From assembly GCA_947311635.1 (NCBI GenBank), contig CAMZLD010000032.1, forward strand, positions 1 to 41,657: 41,657 bases of DNA, in the 5' to 3' direction. Shown piece by piece: positions 33,691-40,142 of the stretch; position 1 is the first letter of the stretch, and the number at the start of each line of letters is the position of its first letter. Source of the DNA: an uncultured Flavobacteriaceae bacterium (GTDB lineage Bacteria; Bacteroidota; Bacteroidia; Flavobacteriales; Flavobacteriaceae). A model generated the notes under the pieces. It ran no database searches. It was not told where the DNA came from and saw only the letters and a list, made by a program, of their open reading frames with translations. A program made the position numbers and the translations under genes.

Positions 33691-33714
33691 CTAAAAACAT
33701 TAATGATAAAAACA

Positions 33715-33722
33715 CAAATATA
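33715..33722 (-). promoter_or_regulatory. TAnnTTTG promoter box before the MBOAT gene
   Basis: The minus strand reads TATATTTG 25 nt before the ATG at 33690. It would drive the MBOAT, AlgJ-like, porZ, recO and receptor run. It is divergent from the box at 33754-33761. Confidence 0.5.
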
Positions 33723-33753
33723 AATTATAATAACTGTAAGTAATAAAAAATGT

Positions 33754-33761
33754 TATTTTTG
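33754..33761 (+). promoter_or_regulatory. TAnnTTTG promoter box before the small ORF and CYTH gene
   Basis: The plus strand reads TATTTTTG. It lies inside an inverted repeat (33752-33772, arms GTTATTTT and AAAATAAC, 5-nt spacer) that also covers the predicted transcription start, so the repeat may be an operator or the top of a leader hairpin. The 29-codon ORF begins about 10 nt after the predicted start. Confidence 0.45.
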
Positions 33762-33778
33762 TTTAAAATAACGTAAAG

Positions 33779-33868
33779 ATGGCTTCCTTTTATAGATCGT
33801 TGATTACCTACAAGCCTATTGTTTCTTTTTATAATTTTTTTAAAAGAAAAGTGAAAGACCTGCTTTAA
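33779..33868 (+). CDS. Possible 29-residue leader or microprotein ORF
   Basis: A short ATG frame encodes MASFYRSLITYKPIVSFYNF followed by FKRKVKDLL, a basic, aromatic, potentially amphipathic peptide. It begins just after a promoter box and ends 10 bp before the ATG of the CYTH gene, so it would be the first reading frame on that transcript. I recognise no family. It could be a real microprotein, a translational leader, or chance; the length is too short for codon statistics to decide. Confidence 0.35.
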   Translation: MASFYRSLITYKPIVSFYNFFKRKVKDLL

Positions 33869-33878
33869 TAAAAAATAT

Positions 33879-34349: not shown

Positions 34350-35804
34350 TTATGCTTTTATGGTTTGTTTGTTAGAAAACAAATTATACGGATCGTATTG
34401 CTGTTTTAACATTTTTAATACTTTATAATTTTTTCCGAAGTAAGCAGTTTCCCAATTTTTAAAATCAATATTTGGATAATTTCTATATTGTTTGTCTACG
34501 CCATTTTTGTAAAAAACTTCTTGAATTTTAGCAAATCTTTCTAATACATCTAAAGGATTTTTATCCTTTTTCCAATACGCTTGTAATTCTGAAAGAAATG
34601 GTTGATTACGATGTGGATAACAAGATTTTACTTCAAAATTTTTGTTAGCGATGTTGCCGCCCAAAGTGTTTATTTGATAAATTAATCCTCGCTTTTTTAA
34701 AAGTAATTCTAATACCTCATCAATACTTGTTTCTATTGTTTCATACCCTTGATAATAACCTGCCGAAGCATTTTTAAAATAAATTGGATATTGTATTCCA
34801 TAAAACGGATACAATGCTTGCGCTAATTTCTTTGGCTTTCCAAGACGTGTTTTATCGGTTAGTTTTTTAAAAACAGTCAGCATTTTTTCTAATGAAGTGT
34901 TTTTTTCTCCGTAATTAGTAATTAGAAGTGTTAATGTTTTATAATTTAAAACAAATGCAGCAAAACAAGTGTTTGGCAATTCTTTTGATAATTCAAAATA
35001 TTTTCGAAGTAATATTTTTGTACGATTTTTATCTAATTTATATGCTTTAAATCGATAACTTGTAAAAGTCTTGGGGGCTTTTTGTGTTATAAACTCAAAC
35101 TTAGTAACAACACCAAAATTTCCATTTCCACCTCCTTTTAAAGCCCAAAGTAATGTGTCTTTTTGAGTTGTTTGATGAATGTTTCCTTTTCCATCCACAA
35201 ATGTCACTTTAACTATATGGTCACATGTGAGTCCGTATTTTCTAGAAAAAAAACCATAACCACCACCAAGAGTTAATCCTCCTAAACCAACTGAACCACA
35301 AGACCCTGCAGGCAACAAGCGTTGTTTTGGAAGTAAATAATCATATAAATCACGTAACAAACACGCAGGTTCTGCTATTAAATTGGTGTTTGTCTGTAAT
35401 GAAACATTGTTTAATAATGAAAGGTTTATTTGCAAACCATTGTCTATCGAAGAAAAACCTTCAAAACTATGTCCGCCACTTTTTACAGCAACTTTCAGTT
35501 TGTTTTTTATGGCAAATTTAATGGCTTCAGAAACACCTTTAGTGTTTTTACAAAGCGCAATGTATGCCGGGTTTTTTGGTGTTCTTAAATTAAATCCTTG
35601 GTTATATTTTATAAAATCTTGGGTTTCTTTTTGTAAGTATACAACGTTGTTAGAAACAAGTTCTTTTTCTAATACAGCAATCGTATCTTTTGGTTGTTTT
35701 ATTTTTTTCTTTTCCGAAGAAAATTTACACGATGGTATGCAAAGCCCTAAGCCAGATAAAGCTATTAGTTTTAAGATATCTCTTCTGCTTTTTGTTTGGT
35801 GCAT
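34350..35804 (-). CDS. Exported FAD-binding oxidoreductase, berberine-bridge-enzyme type
   Basis: This 484-residue flavoprotein has an N-terminal SRRDILKLIALSGLGLCIPSC, which combines a twin-arginine motif with a lipobox ending at Cys26; it is probably Tat-exported and lipid-anchored. The FAD_binding_4 domain (about 75-215) has His112 in KSGGHSFEG and Cys169 in PAGSCGSVGLGG, matching the two residues that bind FAD covalently in berberine-bridge and gluco-oligosaccharide oxidases. The C-terminal YRNYPNIDF and YDPYNLFSNKQTI are the BBE domain. A sugar or alcohol substrate is likely but unknown. The ATG at 35804 overlaps the trpS stop by one base; a longer frame begins with TTG. Confidence 0.88.
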   Translation of the reverse strand: MHQTKSRRDILKLIALSGLGLCIPSCKFSSEKKKIKQPKDTIAVLEKELVSNNVVYLQKETQDFIKYNQGFNLRTPKNPAYIALCKNTKGVSEAIKFAIKNKLKVAVKSGGHSFEGFSSIDNGLQINLSLLNNVSLQTNTNLIAEPACLLRDLYDYLLPKQRLLPAGSCGSVGLGGLTLGGGYGFFSRKYGLTCDHIVKVTFVDGKGNIHQTTQKDTLLWALKGGGNGNFGVVTKFEFITQKAPKTFTSYRFKAYKLDKNRTKILLRKYFELSKELPNTCFAAFVLNYKTLTLLITNYGEKNTSLEKMLTVFKKLTDKTRLGKPKKLAQALYPFYGIQYPIYFKNASAGYYQGYETIETSIDEVLELLLKKRGLIYQINTLGGNIANKNFEVKSCYPHRNQPFLSELQAYWKKDKNPLDVLERFAKIQEVFYKNGVDKQYRNYPNIDFKNWETAYFGKNYKVLKMLKQQYDPYNLFSNKQTIKA

Positions 35805-36772
35805 CAATATCCTAATTTTTCTCGTACACGCTGTAAAACTTGTGTAGCCACTTTTTGTGCCTTTTCTGCTCCAATTTCTAGAGCTTTGTCAATTTCATCT
35901 AAATTGTTCATGTAATACTGGTAGCGTTCTCTTTCTGTCTTATATTTTTCAAGTATAAGTTCATAAAATGCTTGTTTTGCATGTCCATAACCATAATTTC
36001 CAGCTTCATAATTTTGGCGCATCTGTGCTGTTTGTTCTTTTGAAGCAACAATTTTATACAATGAAAATAAATTACACGTATCTGGATTTTTAGGTTCTTC
36101 TAAAGGTGTAGAATCTGTTTGAATTTTCATAATTTGCTTTCGTAACTTTTTATCGTCTAGAAAAATATCGATAATATTTCCTTTGCTTTTACTCATCTTT
36201 TCGCCATCAATACCAGGAACTAACATGGTATTTTCTTGAATTTTCCCTTCTGGAATTACAAAGGTTTCTCCCATTTTAGCATGAAATCTAGAAGCTACGT
36301 CACGTGTCATTTCTATATGCTGCAATTGATCTTTTCCTACAGGAATAATAGCGGCATCATACAACAAAATATCTGCTGCCATTAACATTGGATATGTAAA
36401 TAAGCCTGCGTTGACATCTTCTAATCGATCTGCTTTATCTTTAAAACTATGGGCTAATGTTAAGCGTTGATATGGAAAAAAACAACTTAAATACCATGAC
36501 AATTCGGTTACTTGTGGAATATCACTTTGACGGTAAAAAACGGTTTTCTGAATATCTAAACCAAATGCCAACCAAGTAGCAGCAGTACTATATGTGTTTT
36601 TTCTTAACGTTTGTCCATCTTTAATTTGTGTTAAAGAATGCATGTCTGCAATAAACAAAAAAGACTCGTTTGCTGGATTATTAGCCAGCGCTATTGCGGG
36701 CAATATAGCTCCTAAAATATTACCTAAATGTGGTGTGCCTGTACTTTGAATGCCTGTTAGTATTCTTGCCAT
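35804..36772 (-). CDS. trpS: Tryptophanyl-tRNA synthetase
   Basis: This 322-residue class I synthetase has the HIGH-like TPHLGN at 13-18 and the KMSKS loop at 192-196 (GEKMSKSKGNII). DMHSLTQIKD and PVGKDQLQHIEMTRD are TrpRS family segments. It charges tRNA-Trp. It stands first in a two-gene run with the exported flavoprotein and is divergent from plsC across a 71-bp region holding a perfect palindrome. Length and motifs are normal. Confidence 0.96.
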   Translation of the reverse strand: MARILTGIQSTGTPHLGNILGAILPAIALANNPANESFLFIADMHSLTQIKDGQTLRKNTYSTAATWLAFGLDIQKTVFYRQSDIPQVTELSWYLSCFFPYQRLTLAHSFKDKADRLEDVNAGLFTYPMLMAADILLYDAAIIPVGKDQLQHIEMTRDVASRFHAKMGETFVIPEGKIQENTMLVPGIDGEKMSKSKGNIIDIFLDDKKLRKQIMKIQTDSTPLEEPKNPDTCNLFSLYKIVASKEQTAQMRQNYEAGNYGYGHAKQAFYELILEKYKTERERYQYYMNNLDEIDKALEIGAEKAQKVATQVLQRVREKLGY

Positions 36773-36797
36773 ATCAATCTTTCGTTCTATAAAAAAA

Positions 36798-36836
36798 CAA
36801 AAATAGAGATTTTAAATTTTAAAATCTCTATTTTTG
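36798..36836. promoter_or_regulatory. Perfect 39-bp palindrome with outward promoter boxes between trpS and plsC
   Basis: The arms are 36798-36816 (caaaaatagagattttaaa) and 36818-36836, exact reverse complements around a single central T at 36817. Each end is a TATTTTTG box facing outward: 36798-36805 on the minus strand toward trpS (leader about 20 nt) and 36829-36836 on the plus strand toward plsC (ATG at 36844, so almost leaderless). A 19-bp perfect arm is long for a chance event even in AT-rich DNA. It could be a shared operator or a symmetrical divergent promoter. No -33 TTG is seen for either direction. Confidence 0.65.
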
Positions 36837-36843
36837 AAAACTT

Positions 36844-37623
36844 ATGAACTTTATTAAAAATATATTTCGCCTCTTTTGGAGACTTTGGTTTTATGCGTGG
36901 GTTGTCGGTACAATTGCTGTAATATTACCCGTATTGGTTATTTTGGTTTCTACAGACCGTTTTTACAAAACCTACTTTAAAATAGCCATTGCTTGGGGAA
37001 AAACCATTTTATTTATCATGGGCTTTAAAGCAGAAACTATTTATGAACAAAAGATAGACCCAAACAAAAGTTACATGTTTATAGCCAATCACACTTCTTT
37101 GATTGATATTATGCTAATGTTTGCTGTAATGAAAAACCCAGGTGTTTTCGTCGGAAAAAAGGAATTAAAAAAACTTCCTGTTTTTGGTTACATTTTTCGT
37201 AAAACAAGTATCATGGTAGATCGCTCAAATCCTAAAAGTAGAAAAGAAGTATATGATAGTGCACGACAAAAAATAAAAGATGGTTTAAGTATTGTTTTTT
37301 ACCCTGAAGGTCTTGTTCCTTCAGAAGATGTTATTATGAGCGAATTTAAAAACGGTGCTTTTAGGCTAGCCATAGAACATGAGTTAGAAATTGTGCCAAT
37401 GACATTTTATGACTGTAAAGAAAGATTGTCTTGGACTTTTTTTAGTGGTGGTCCTGGTAAATTACGCGTAAAAGTGCACAAATTTATACAAACCAAAGGG
37501 CTCGCTTTAAAAGACTTGCCAGCTTTAAAAGAAAAGGCATACTCAATTATTTATAACGAATTAATCAATGACAAGGCATATATGCGTTGTACAAATAAAG
37601 CAAAAAATGAACTTCAAAAATAG
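36844..37623 (+). CDS. plsC: 1-acyl-sn-glycerol-3-phosphate acyltransferase
   Basis: This 259-residue PlsC-type acyltransferase has an N-terminal membrane helix (about 17-37), the HX4D catalytic motif His83-Asp88 in ANHTSLID, GKKELKKLPVFGYIFR in block II, and VFYPEGLVPSE at 151-161 in block III (the usual EGTR is changed to EGLV). It acylates lysophosphatidic acid to phosphatidic acid at the cytoplasmic membrane. It is followed with a 17-bp overlap by the M1 peptidase gene, suggesting an operon of three genes through the hemolysin III-like gene. Alternative lysophospholipid acceptors are possible. Confidence 0.9.
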   Translation: MNFIKNIFRLFWRLWFYAWVVGTIAVILPVLVILVSTDRFYKTYFKIAIAWGKTILFIMGFKAETIYEQKIDPNKSYMFIANHTSLIDIMLMFAVMKNPGVFVGKKELKKLPVFGYIFRKTSIMVDRSNPKSRKEVYDSARQKIKDGLSIVFYPEGLVPSEDVIMSEFKNGAFRLAIEHELEIVPMTFYDCKERLSWTFFSGGPGKLRVKVHKFIQTKGLALKDLPALKEKAYSIIYNELINDKAYMRCTNKAKNELQK

Positions 37624-39466
37624 TCTTTACATGCTGCTTACTATTTTAATATTAAGCTGTACTAAAAAAACAAATAATAAAGTGAAAACTCAACAATATG
37701 CTATAGATTATCATTCGTATGCGCAACCTAATAAAGCGGTAGCAACACATTTAAATTTAAAATTAGATGTCCATTTTGATACTAAAATTATAGATGGTGT
37801 TGCTAGTTACTTAATTACAACACAAAACAATGCTTCTGCTATTGTTTTTGACACCAAAAATTTAGAAATCTTAAAAGTAGAAGCAAATAAAAAACCAACA
37901 AAATTTCAATTAGAGAAAACGGATGACATTTTAGGGCGAGCATTAAAAATTGAGCTTCCTAAAAATGCAAAAACCGTAACTATTTACTACAAAACAACGG
38001 CTAAAACTGAAGCACTTCAATTTTTAAACCCACAACAAACTGCCGATAAAAAACATCCTTTTTTATTAACCCAAGGGCAAGCTATTTTAACGCGCACATG
38101 GATTCCTATTCAAGATTCGCCACAAATACGCATTACCTACAATGCAACTGTAAAAGTTCCGAATGAATTAATGGCGGTGATGAGTGCTAAAAACCCAAAA
38201 CAAAAATCAAAAGATGGTGTCTATCATTTTGAAATGAAACAACCTATTTCTCCTTATTTAATTGCTTTAGCTGTTGGTGATTTAGCGTATAAAAAAATAA
38301 GTGATAGAACGGGTGTTTATGCAGAAAAAACCGTCATAGACAAGGCGCATTATGAGTTTGCTGACATGGAAAAAATGGTGACCGCTGCAGAAAACCTCTA
38401 CGGAAAATACGCGTGGCAACAATTTGATGTTGTGGTCTTACCGCCAAGTTTTCCTTTTGGTGGTATGGAAAACCCACGCTTAACCTTTGCAACACCAACC
38501 GTAATTGCAGGCGATCGTAGCTTAACAAGTTTAATTGCTCATGAATTAGCACATTCATGGTCTGGAAATCTAGTAACCAACGCCACTTGGGATGATTTTT
38601 GGTTAAATGAAGGCTTTACCGTTTATTTTGAAATGCGCATTATGGAAGCGCTTTACGGAAAAGATCATGCTAACATGCTTGCTGCTATTGGAAGACAAGA
38701 TTTAGAAGAAGAATTACAAGGCATGAAAAACACTCCAAACGACACCAAATTAAAACTGAATCTAAAAGGCAGAAATCCAGATGATGGTATGAATAGTATT
38801 GCTTATGATAAAGGGTATCTGTTTTTAAGAACCTTAGAAAATACTGTTGGTCGTTCAAAAATGGATGTTTTTTTAAAAACTTATTTTAATGAACATGCCT
38901 TTTCTACAATGACCACAGAACGGTTTATTGATTACCTAAATAAAAACCTATTAGATAAAAATGACATTACATTTAATGTGAATGAATGGATTTACAAACC
39001 AGGCATTCCAAAAAATGCTATTACTGTTAAGTCTACAAAATTTAAAGACGTAGAAAACAGCATTAATCAATGGAAAAATGGAAAAATAACAGCCAAAGAA
39101 ATCTGTAATCAAGATTGGAATATTCAGCAAAAAATACATTTTATACGTAATATTCCGAAGGAAATTTCAAAAGTAAAAATGAATGCCTTAGATACGCATT
39201 GTTCGTTTACAAACTCAACCAATTCTTACATTACAATGGTTTGGTTTGAACAAGCTATTAACCATGATTACCACGCAAACAATGTAGATTCTAAAATTGA
39301 AGATTTTTTAATGCATGTTGGAAGACGGTGGTATGTTTCTACCATTTATAGCGCTTTAAAAAACAATGGCGAAATAAAAAAAGCCTTCGCTATTTACAAA
39401 AAAGCACGTCCTAATTACCATTCAGTAACACGAAATACTATTGATGAAATGCTTGCATATAAATAA
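37607..39466 (+). CDS. M1-family metallo-aminopeptidase lipoprotein
   Basis: This 619-residue zinc peptidase uses the ATG at 37607, which gives a proper lipoprotein signal (MNFKNSLYMLLTILILSC, lipobox Cys18). The longer frame from 37568 would spoil it. The N-terminal beta-domain (about 40-230) is followed by GGMENP at 285-290, HELAH at 312-316 and Glu335 in WLNEGF, completing HEXXH-X18-E. SIAYDKGYLFLRTLE follows, then a helical leukotriene-A4-hydrolase-type C-terminal domain. It should cleave N-terminal residues from peptides at the envelope. It overlaps plsC by 17 bp and the next gene by one base. Confidence 0.93.
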   Translation: MNFKNSLYMLLTILILSCTKKTNNKVKTQQYAIDYHSYAQPNKAVATHLNLKLDVHFDTKIIDGVASYLITTQNNASAIVFDTKNLEILKVEANKKPTKFQLEKTDDILGRALKIELPKNAKTVTIYYKTTAKTEALQFLNPQQTADKKHPFLLTQGQAILTRTWIPIQDSPQIRITYNATVKVPNELMAVMSAKNPKQKSKDGVYHFEMKQPISPYLIALAVGDLAYKKISDRTGVYAEKTVIDKAHYEFADMEKMVTAAENLYGKYAWQQFDVVVLPPSFPFGGMENPRLTFATPTVIAGDRSLTSLIAHELAHSWSGNLVTNATWDDFWLNEGFTVYFEMRIMEALYGKDHANMLAAIGRQDLEEELQGMKNTPNDTKLKLNLKGRNPDDGMNSIAYDKGYLFLRTLENTVGRSKMDVFLKTYFNEHAFSTMTTERFIDYLNKNLLDKNDITFNVNEWIYKPGIPKNAITVKSTKFKDVENSINQWKNGKITAKEICNQDWNIQQKIHFIRNIPKEISKVKMNALDTHCSFTNSTNSYITMVWFEQAINHDYHANNVDSKIEDFLMHVGRRWYVSTIYSALKNNGEIKKAFAIYKKARPNYHSVTRNTIDEMLAYK

Positions 39467-40113
39467 TGGAACAAACACGTCATGCATATAGTAAAAAAGA
39501 GGAATTTTTAAACATTCTTACCCATGGTTTTGGTTTTGTATTAAGTGTTCTTGCACTAATTGCAATGCTAATTAAAACAGCACAATGTGGTTTTAGACAG
39601 CAGCTTAGTGCTTGGATTTTTGGTTTGAGTTTGGTTTTTTTATATGCAGCTTCTACTTTGTATCATGCTGCAAAAAAACCCTCATATAGAAGAAAATTAA
39701 ATATTTTAGACCATGCGTTTATTTATGTACTTATTGCTGGCACATACACTCCTTTTACATTAATTACCTTACAATCTAGCTACGGAAAAACAATGCTTGC
39801 TACGGTTTGGATTGTAGCTATTGTTGGTAGTGTTTTTAAGCTTTTCTTTACAGGAAAATTCGAAAAAATTTCTACTTATGCTTATATTGGTATGGGCTTT
39901 ATTGTTGTTGTTTTAATTAAGCCTTTATTACAAAATTTACCGCTAAGTGGGTTTTGGTACCTTATTGGTGGTGGTGTTAGTTATATTATTGGCGCCTATT
40001 TTTATCTAAAAGACGGTAAAATAGCCTACAATCATGCTATTTTTCATGTGTTTGTATTGCTTGGTAGTTTTGGTCATTTTATGGCTGTATACCATCATGT
40101 TTTATGTGCATAA
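39466..40113 (+). CDS. Hemolysin III (PAQR/YqfA) family membrane protein
   Basis: This 215-residue protein has seven membrane segments. Family motifs are EEFLNILTHGFG near 12-23, STLYHAAK with His67, LDHAFIYVLIAGTYTPFTL near 81-99, and NHAIFHVFVLLGSFGHFMAVY near the C-terminus; the conserved histidines resemble the zinc site of PAQR receptors. Bacterial members are linked to membrane-fluidity control rather than true haemolysis, which fits the neighbouring plsC. Its ATG overlaps the stop of the peptidase gene (TAATG). Confidence 0.92.
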   Translation: MEQTRHAYSKKEEFLNILTHGFGFVLSVLALIAMLIKTAQCGFRQQLSAWIFGLSLVFLYAASTLYHAAKKPSYRRKLNILDHAFIYVLIAGTYTPFTLITLQSSYGKTMLATVWIVAIVGSVFKLFFTGKFEKISTYAYIGMGFIVVVLIKPLLQNLPLSGFWYLIGGGVSYIIGAYFYLKDGKIAYNHAIFHVFVLLGSFGHFMAVYHHVLCA

Positions 40114-40142
40114 AAAAAGCCTAACAACATATTGTTAGGCTT
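40112..40142 (-). terminator. Hairpin terminator between convergent genes
   Basis: An 11-bp perfect stem (aagcctaacaa / ttgttaggctt, arms 40117-40127 and 40132-40142) closes on a 4-nt loop. On the minus strand it is followed by a run of seven T residues, giving a classical intrinsic terminator for the 40163 gene. On the plus strand it follows the stop of the hemolysin III gene but the downstream T-tract is weak. Confidence 0.85.

Follow-up and report, generated by a model that had tools for sequence, protein, structure and literature searches.

A perfect 39-bp palindrome between the divergent genes trpS and plsC of an uncultured Flavobacteriaceae bacterium ends on conserved promoter-type boxes

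The divergent genes trpS and plsC of an uncultured Flavobacteriaceae bacterium are separated by a short gap that contains a perfect 39-bp palindrome, at positions 36798-36836 of the window (the whole 41,657-nucleotide stretch of DNA that was analysed). The reading favored here, with a probability of roughly 0.68, is a compact back-to-back promoter pair in which the palindrome arose via a template switch, the symmetry being tolerated and not a conserved feature. The promoters are ordinary flavobacterial ones in an unusual symmetric form.

The gene trpS, for tryptophanyl-tRNA synthetase (35804-36772, minus strand; PF00579, E = 8e-55), and a plsC-like gene, for a 1-acylglycerol-3-phosphate acyltransferase (36844-37623, plus strand; PF01553, E = 5e-23), point away from each other across a 71-bp gap. 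The ATG of trpS ends at 36772 on the minus strand, and that of plsC is at 36844 on the plus strand. Rfam matches around the locus were at chance level only. The palindrome, which is assigned to neither strand, reads CAAAAATAGAGATTTTAAA-T-TTTAAAATCTCTATTTTTG. An earlier note on this DNA had described two exact 19-bp reverse-complement arms around one base, and the coordinates bear this out: the arm at 36798-36816 is the exact reverse complement of that at 36818-36836, with T36817 at the center. No other perfect inverted repeat in the window (loop ≤12) is as long, the runner-up having 11-bp arms, and 15 third-order Markov shuffles of this DNA gave a maximum arm of 12 bp. With the boxes described below taken as given, the probability that all 11 interior pairs match at this site by chance is about 1e-6 to 2e-5. 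The palindrome is far beyond chance in the window, and on these values the statement in the earlier note that chance does not easily give such symmetry holds. The folding energy of the palindrome with DNA parameters is -14.3 kcal/mol, and a DNA cruciform is possible at this site.

Both outer ends of the palindrome are TATTTTTG, which fits TAnnTTTG, and the two copies face outwards. The primary sigma factor of Flavobacterium recognizes TAnnTTTG at -12 to -5 (PMC9723704). A refined flavobacterial box, TAHHTTTG, is followed by the transcription start after 4-5 nt and is accompanied by AT-rich motifs near -18 and -28 (PMC6847099). The copy at 36829-36836 on the plus strand is the putative -7 box of the plsC promoter, as judged from its sequence, its conserved position and the published spacing rule (PMC6847099, PMC9723704). 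The copy at 36798-36805 on the minus strand is the putative -7 box of the trpS promoter, as judged from its sequence and from the opposed box present in most related loci. Between them lies a symmetric AT-rich core (36806-36828, neither strand) that is common to both boxes and lacks the TTG of the -33 element on either strand; the 45 nt that precede each box contain no TTG. This absence is treated as non-essential, since the -33 element has been reported to be weak in F. johnsoniae (PMC6847099). Many relatives do have a TTG; its preferred offsets are 20 and 25 nt towards trpS and 15-16 and 24 nt towards plsC.

The spacing of 7 nt between box and ATG predicts a plsC start at about 36841-36842 and a leader of 2-3 nt. 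For trpS, the predicted start is at about 36792-36793, with a leader of about 20-21 nt. Because its predicted start is only 2-3 nt before the ATG, the plsC mRNA would be almost leaderless, as had been proposed, and the conserved short box-to-ATG spacing predicts the same for most Flavobacteriaceae. Leaderless messages account for only 5.5% of the mapped mRNAs in F. psychrophilum (PMC9723704). The palindrome is part of neither predicted transcript, and no RNA hairpin is therefore expected.

Usage of the box was also examined in the organism's own genome, a draft assembly of 139 contigs with an estimated completeness of about 80%, from which a sample of 359 kb (the window and 20 further stretches) was used. 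Among upstream gaps of at least 40 nt, TAnnTTTG is present in 77 of 167, versus 10 after shuffling, and this excess argues that it is a working promoter box in this genome. It is mostly found 10-40 nt before the start codon; a box-to-start spacing of 4-8 nt occurs in only four of the 77 boxed genes. Eight further divergent gaps with opposed boxes were detected in the sample, all of them asymmetric. In the window, a second divergent gap (33691-33878) has opposed TAnnTTTG boxes with a span of 47 bp and an asymmetric core (6/15 pairs).

The divergent pair is well represented in the family. In a trpS search of genome contigs, plsC divergently adjoins trpS in 77 of 80 loci, and all 127 distinct flavobacterial gap sequences, pooled from all sources, are divergent; since these 127 loci were found by protein or gap similarity, they are a sample of the family and not of all bacteria. 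In other families of the order, 7 of 15 loci show the same divergent arrangement. Of the 127 loci, 110 have a TAnnTTTG box that ends 4-10 nt upstream of plsC (0.9% in shuffled gaps), most often at 6 nt, and 115 have an opposed box directed at trpS (7.8% in shuffled gaps). The commonest outer box-to-box span is 49 bp, seen in 57 of the 109 loci that have both boxes. The distance from the plsC box to the ATG is nearly fixed and the corresponding trpS distance varies widely, which makes the very short leader predicted for plsC the feature under the tightest constraint. These comparisons support the two outward TAnnTTTG boxes as conserved promoter elements in Flavobacteriaceae. They also uphold the earlier reading of the site as a divergent promoter, with a box at each outer end pointing at trpS or plsC.

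Some of the related gaps have additional features. Gaps of about 390-440 bp separate trpS from plsC in L139, L140, L188 and similar loci, where the plsC box is still a few nt from the ATG; these gaps seem to contain a small extra gene and a terminator. At least 17 of the 127 relatives (e.g., L031, L058, L063, L091, L111, L130 and L155) have, a few nt upstream of the trpS ATG, a hairpin with a stem of 6-8 (for example, TTCCCGC-TTTC-GCGGGAA) that varies on both sides. It is absent from the window. Six of these hairpin loci gave no Rfam match, and the element may act in cis as a regulatory hairpin or belong to a dispersed repeat of the REP type.

Symmetry is distributed very differently from the boxes. 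The window matches in 11 of 11 interior pairs; the mean fraction is 0.37 in loci with spans below 75 bp and 0.31 in shuffles, and the next-best locus reaches 0.56. A palindromic segment between the boxes was found in none of the relatives examined, the sister lineage included. In a tree built from trpS and plsC together, L114 is that sister, with a support of 0.998 and at a distance of 0.37 from the window lineage; L136, L185 and L083 join next. The box-to-box span is 55 bp in L114 and 43 bp in L185, asymmetric in both. The comparison of this gap across related species that the earlier note had called for thus gave a divided answer: the boxes are kept, but the symmetry is absent from every relative examined. 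Since the relatives, the sister L114 and the other opposed-box gaps of the organism's own genome are all asymmetric, the perfect palindrome probably arose in this lineage. Its absence from all relatives examined suggests that selection keeps the boxes and not the symmetry, and the sequences give no sign of a conserved function for the symmetry itself.

The length of the palindrome alone is unremarkable, because the 359-kb sample contains 15 perfect inverted repeats with arms of at least 15 bp (loop ≤10). Most of these long palindromes resemble terminators: as assigned with a simple ORF caller, their gaps are tandem or convergent and they are close to the 3' ends of genes. The sole other palindrome called divergent is in a gap exceeding 400 bp, and that at 36798-36836 is the only one in the sample with arms of at least 12 bp in a short divergent gap. 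What is remarkable is its position, between two gene starts and with its ends exactly on promoter boxes. A genome search for other copies of the arm, also suggested earlier, gave only inexact matches with 1-2 mismatches (24 in total, versus 13 for a reversed-pattern control) and no second palindromic copy in the assembly. Among the matches listed from a DNA search of 397 family genomes, there was likewise no second copy of the palindrome, and the gaps examined in the loci retrieved were asymmetric. Elsewhere in the organism's own genome, L165:5910-5941 and L170:3067-3099 each carry a perfect palindrome close to a gene end; the two, AAACCTCACAGATTTTAAAATCTGTGAGGTTT and AGACCTCACAGGTTTTAAAAACCTGTGAGGTCT, are nearly identical, which suggests a dispersed repeat. 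In the window, AAGCCTAACAACATATTGTTAGGCTT (40117-40142), just 3' of the gene at 39466-40113, has the look of an ordinary terminator common to convergent genes.

The simplest origin for the symmetry is most likely a quasipalindrome that was perfected by template switching during replication. The trpS and plsC promoters, both of the Bacteroidota primary-sigma type (-7 box TAnnTTTG) and with a common AT-rich core, would by their opposed boxes form a quasipalindrome from the outset. Near relatives match in 4-7 of the 11 interior pairs when their own arms are compared, somewhat above a rough yardstick of 3.8/11 (the window arm against randomized sequence of the relatives), so a quasipalindrome was probably present in the ancestor. 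A nascent strand may then have folded back and copied one arm, which would give the perfect palindrome in this lineage and bring the box-to-box span down to 39 bp from an earlier 49-55 bp or so, with a loss of about 10-16 bp. The span in the window is 10 bp shorter than the modal value and 16 bp shorter than that of the sister, and a fold-back copy can explain this shortening. In E. coli, template switching that turns quasipalindromes into perfect ones has been documented (PMC7202029). As for the donor arm, the plsC-side arm is slightly closer in the two closest informative relatives, not in the others. With a sister lineage as distant as L114, one event and several small changes are indistinguishable. 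The perfect symmetry would be tolerated because both boxes and the AT-rich core stay intact.

Other explanations account for parts of these data. Perfect 19-bp arms that overlap both promoters would suit the operator of a dimeric regulator, or a symmetric switch that is itself selected, with trpS and plsC co-regulated in this lineage, and the divergent pair is conserved in the family and present in the 7 of 15 order-level loci. However, the symmetric core occurs in no relative examined, the assembly has no second palindromic copy, and the eight other opposed-box gaps of the genome are asymmetric; such an operator or switch is unlikely. In a draft metagenome assembly of 139 contigs and 80% estimated completeness, a fold-back read junction could have equalized the arms as an assembly or library artefact. 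Such a junction would be expected to continue into the flanking genes, whereas here the symmetry ends exactly at the boxes, and both boxes and both flanks are at the positions of the conserved locus, which makes an artefact improbable.

A bidirectional intrinsic terminator, or the relic of one, would place this palindrome with most long perfect palindromes of the genome. It has A-tract and T-tract ends, and its RNA folding energy (-17.2 kcal/mol) falls between -10 and -24, the limits seen for the terminator-like palindromes. This explanation is nevertheless very unlikely: the stem is AT-rich, the palindrome is between two gene starts and not at gene 3' ends, its ends fall on promoter boxes that are also conserved in relatives lacking a hairpin at this place, and the predicted starts are outside it, so that neither mRNA would include it. 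It is just as hard to credit that AT-rich arms converged by independent substitutions, through chance and a common promoter constraint (the -18 and -28 regions). The same promoter constraints do act on both arms, and the relatives are already part-symmetric (4-7/11 pairs), but the chance of 11/11 interior pairs is that given above, about 1e-6 to 2e-5, and AT-richness does not explain the identical GAG/CTC triplets. An invertible promoter was also considered and rejected; with arms 1 bp apart, inversion changes almost nothing.

In the preferred reading, a back-to-back promoter pair perfected by template switching, polymerase could bind in either direction, probably not in both simultaneously. 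With only about 48 bp between the predicted starts (~36793 and ~36841), there should not be room for two polymerases at once. Back-to-back promoters at such spacing plausibly compete for polymerase, if anything; in E. coli bidirectional promoters, competition was seen only when one direction was strongly active (PMC12825309). The proposal that this arrangement couples tRNA charging to phospholipid synthesis is not supported: nothing was found in its favor, and the literature yielded nothing relevant on trpS-plsC co-regulation. It is also doubtful that the site works as a fully symmetric promoter, where polymerase would meet the same sequence in either direction when choosing between trpS and plsC, their expression ratio would be set solely outside the palindrome, and a near-leaderless plsC mRNA would stand opposite a leadered trpS mRNA.

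Several known systems resemble this locus in part. As in the Bacteroidota primary-sigma promoters (-33/-7, TTTG/TAnnTTTG) of B. fragilis, F. johnsoniae and F. psychrophilum, the box fits both TAnnTTTG and TAHHTTTG, the core is AT-rich, and the distances to the start codons are usual. Unlike them, the locus is without the -33 TTG and has two promoters back to back in exact symmetry. In the bidirectional promoters of E. coli and Salmonella described by Warman and Grainger, symmetry likewise permits two polymerase orientations, and competition is possible. Those promoters have one common -10 element and need starts 7-25 bp apart (PMC10268837), whereas here two separate boxes are 23 bp apart and the predicted starts about 48 bp apart, so the locus is not of that type. 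Quasipalindrome template-switch mutations, as at the E. coli thyA hotspot and in lacZ reporters, convert an imperfect inverted repeat into a perfect one, as is proposed here. In contrast to those cases, the change here is deduced across distant species and would also have shortened the span.

Across Flavobacteriaceae, the comparison reveals conservation of a compact divergent promoter pair and of the very short leader predicted for plsC. The palindrome is a probable case of template switching that rewrote a promoter core without destroying the promoter, and the locus offers a natural symmetric test piece for the choice of orientation by polymerase in Bacteroidota.
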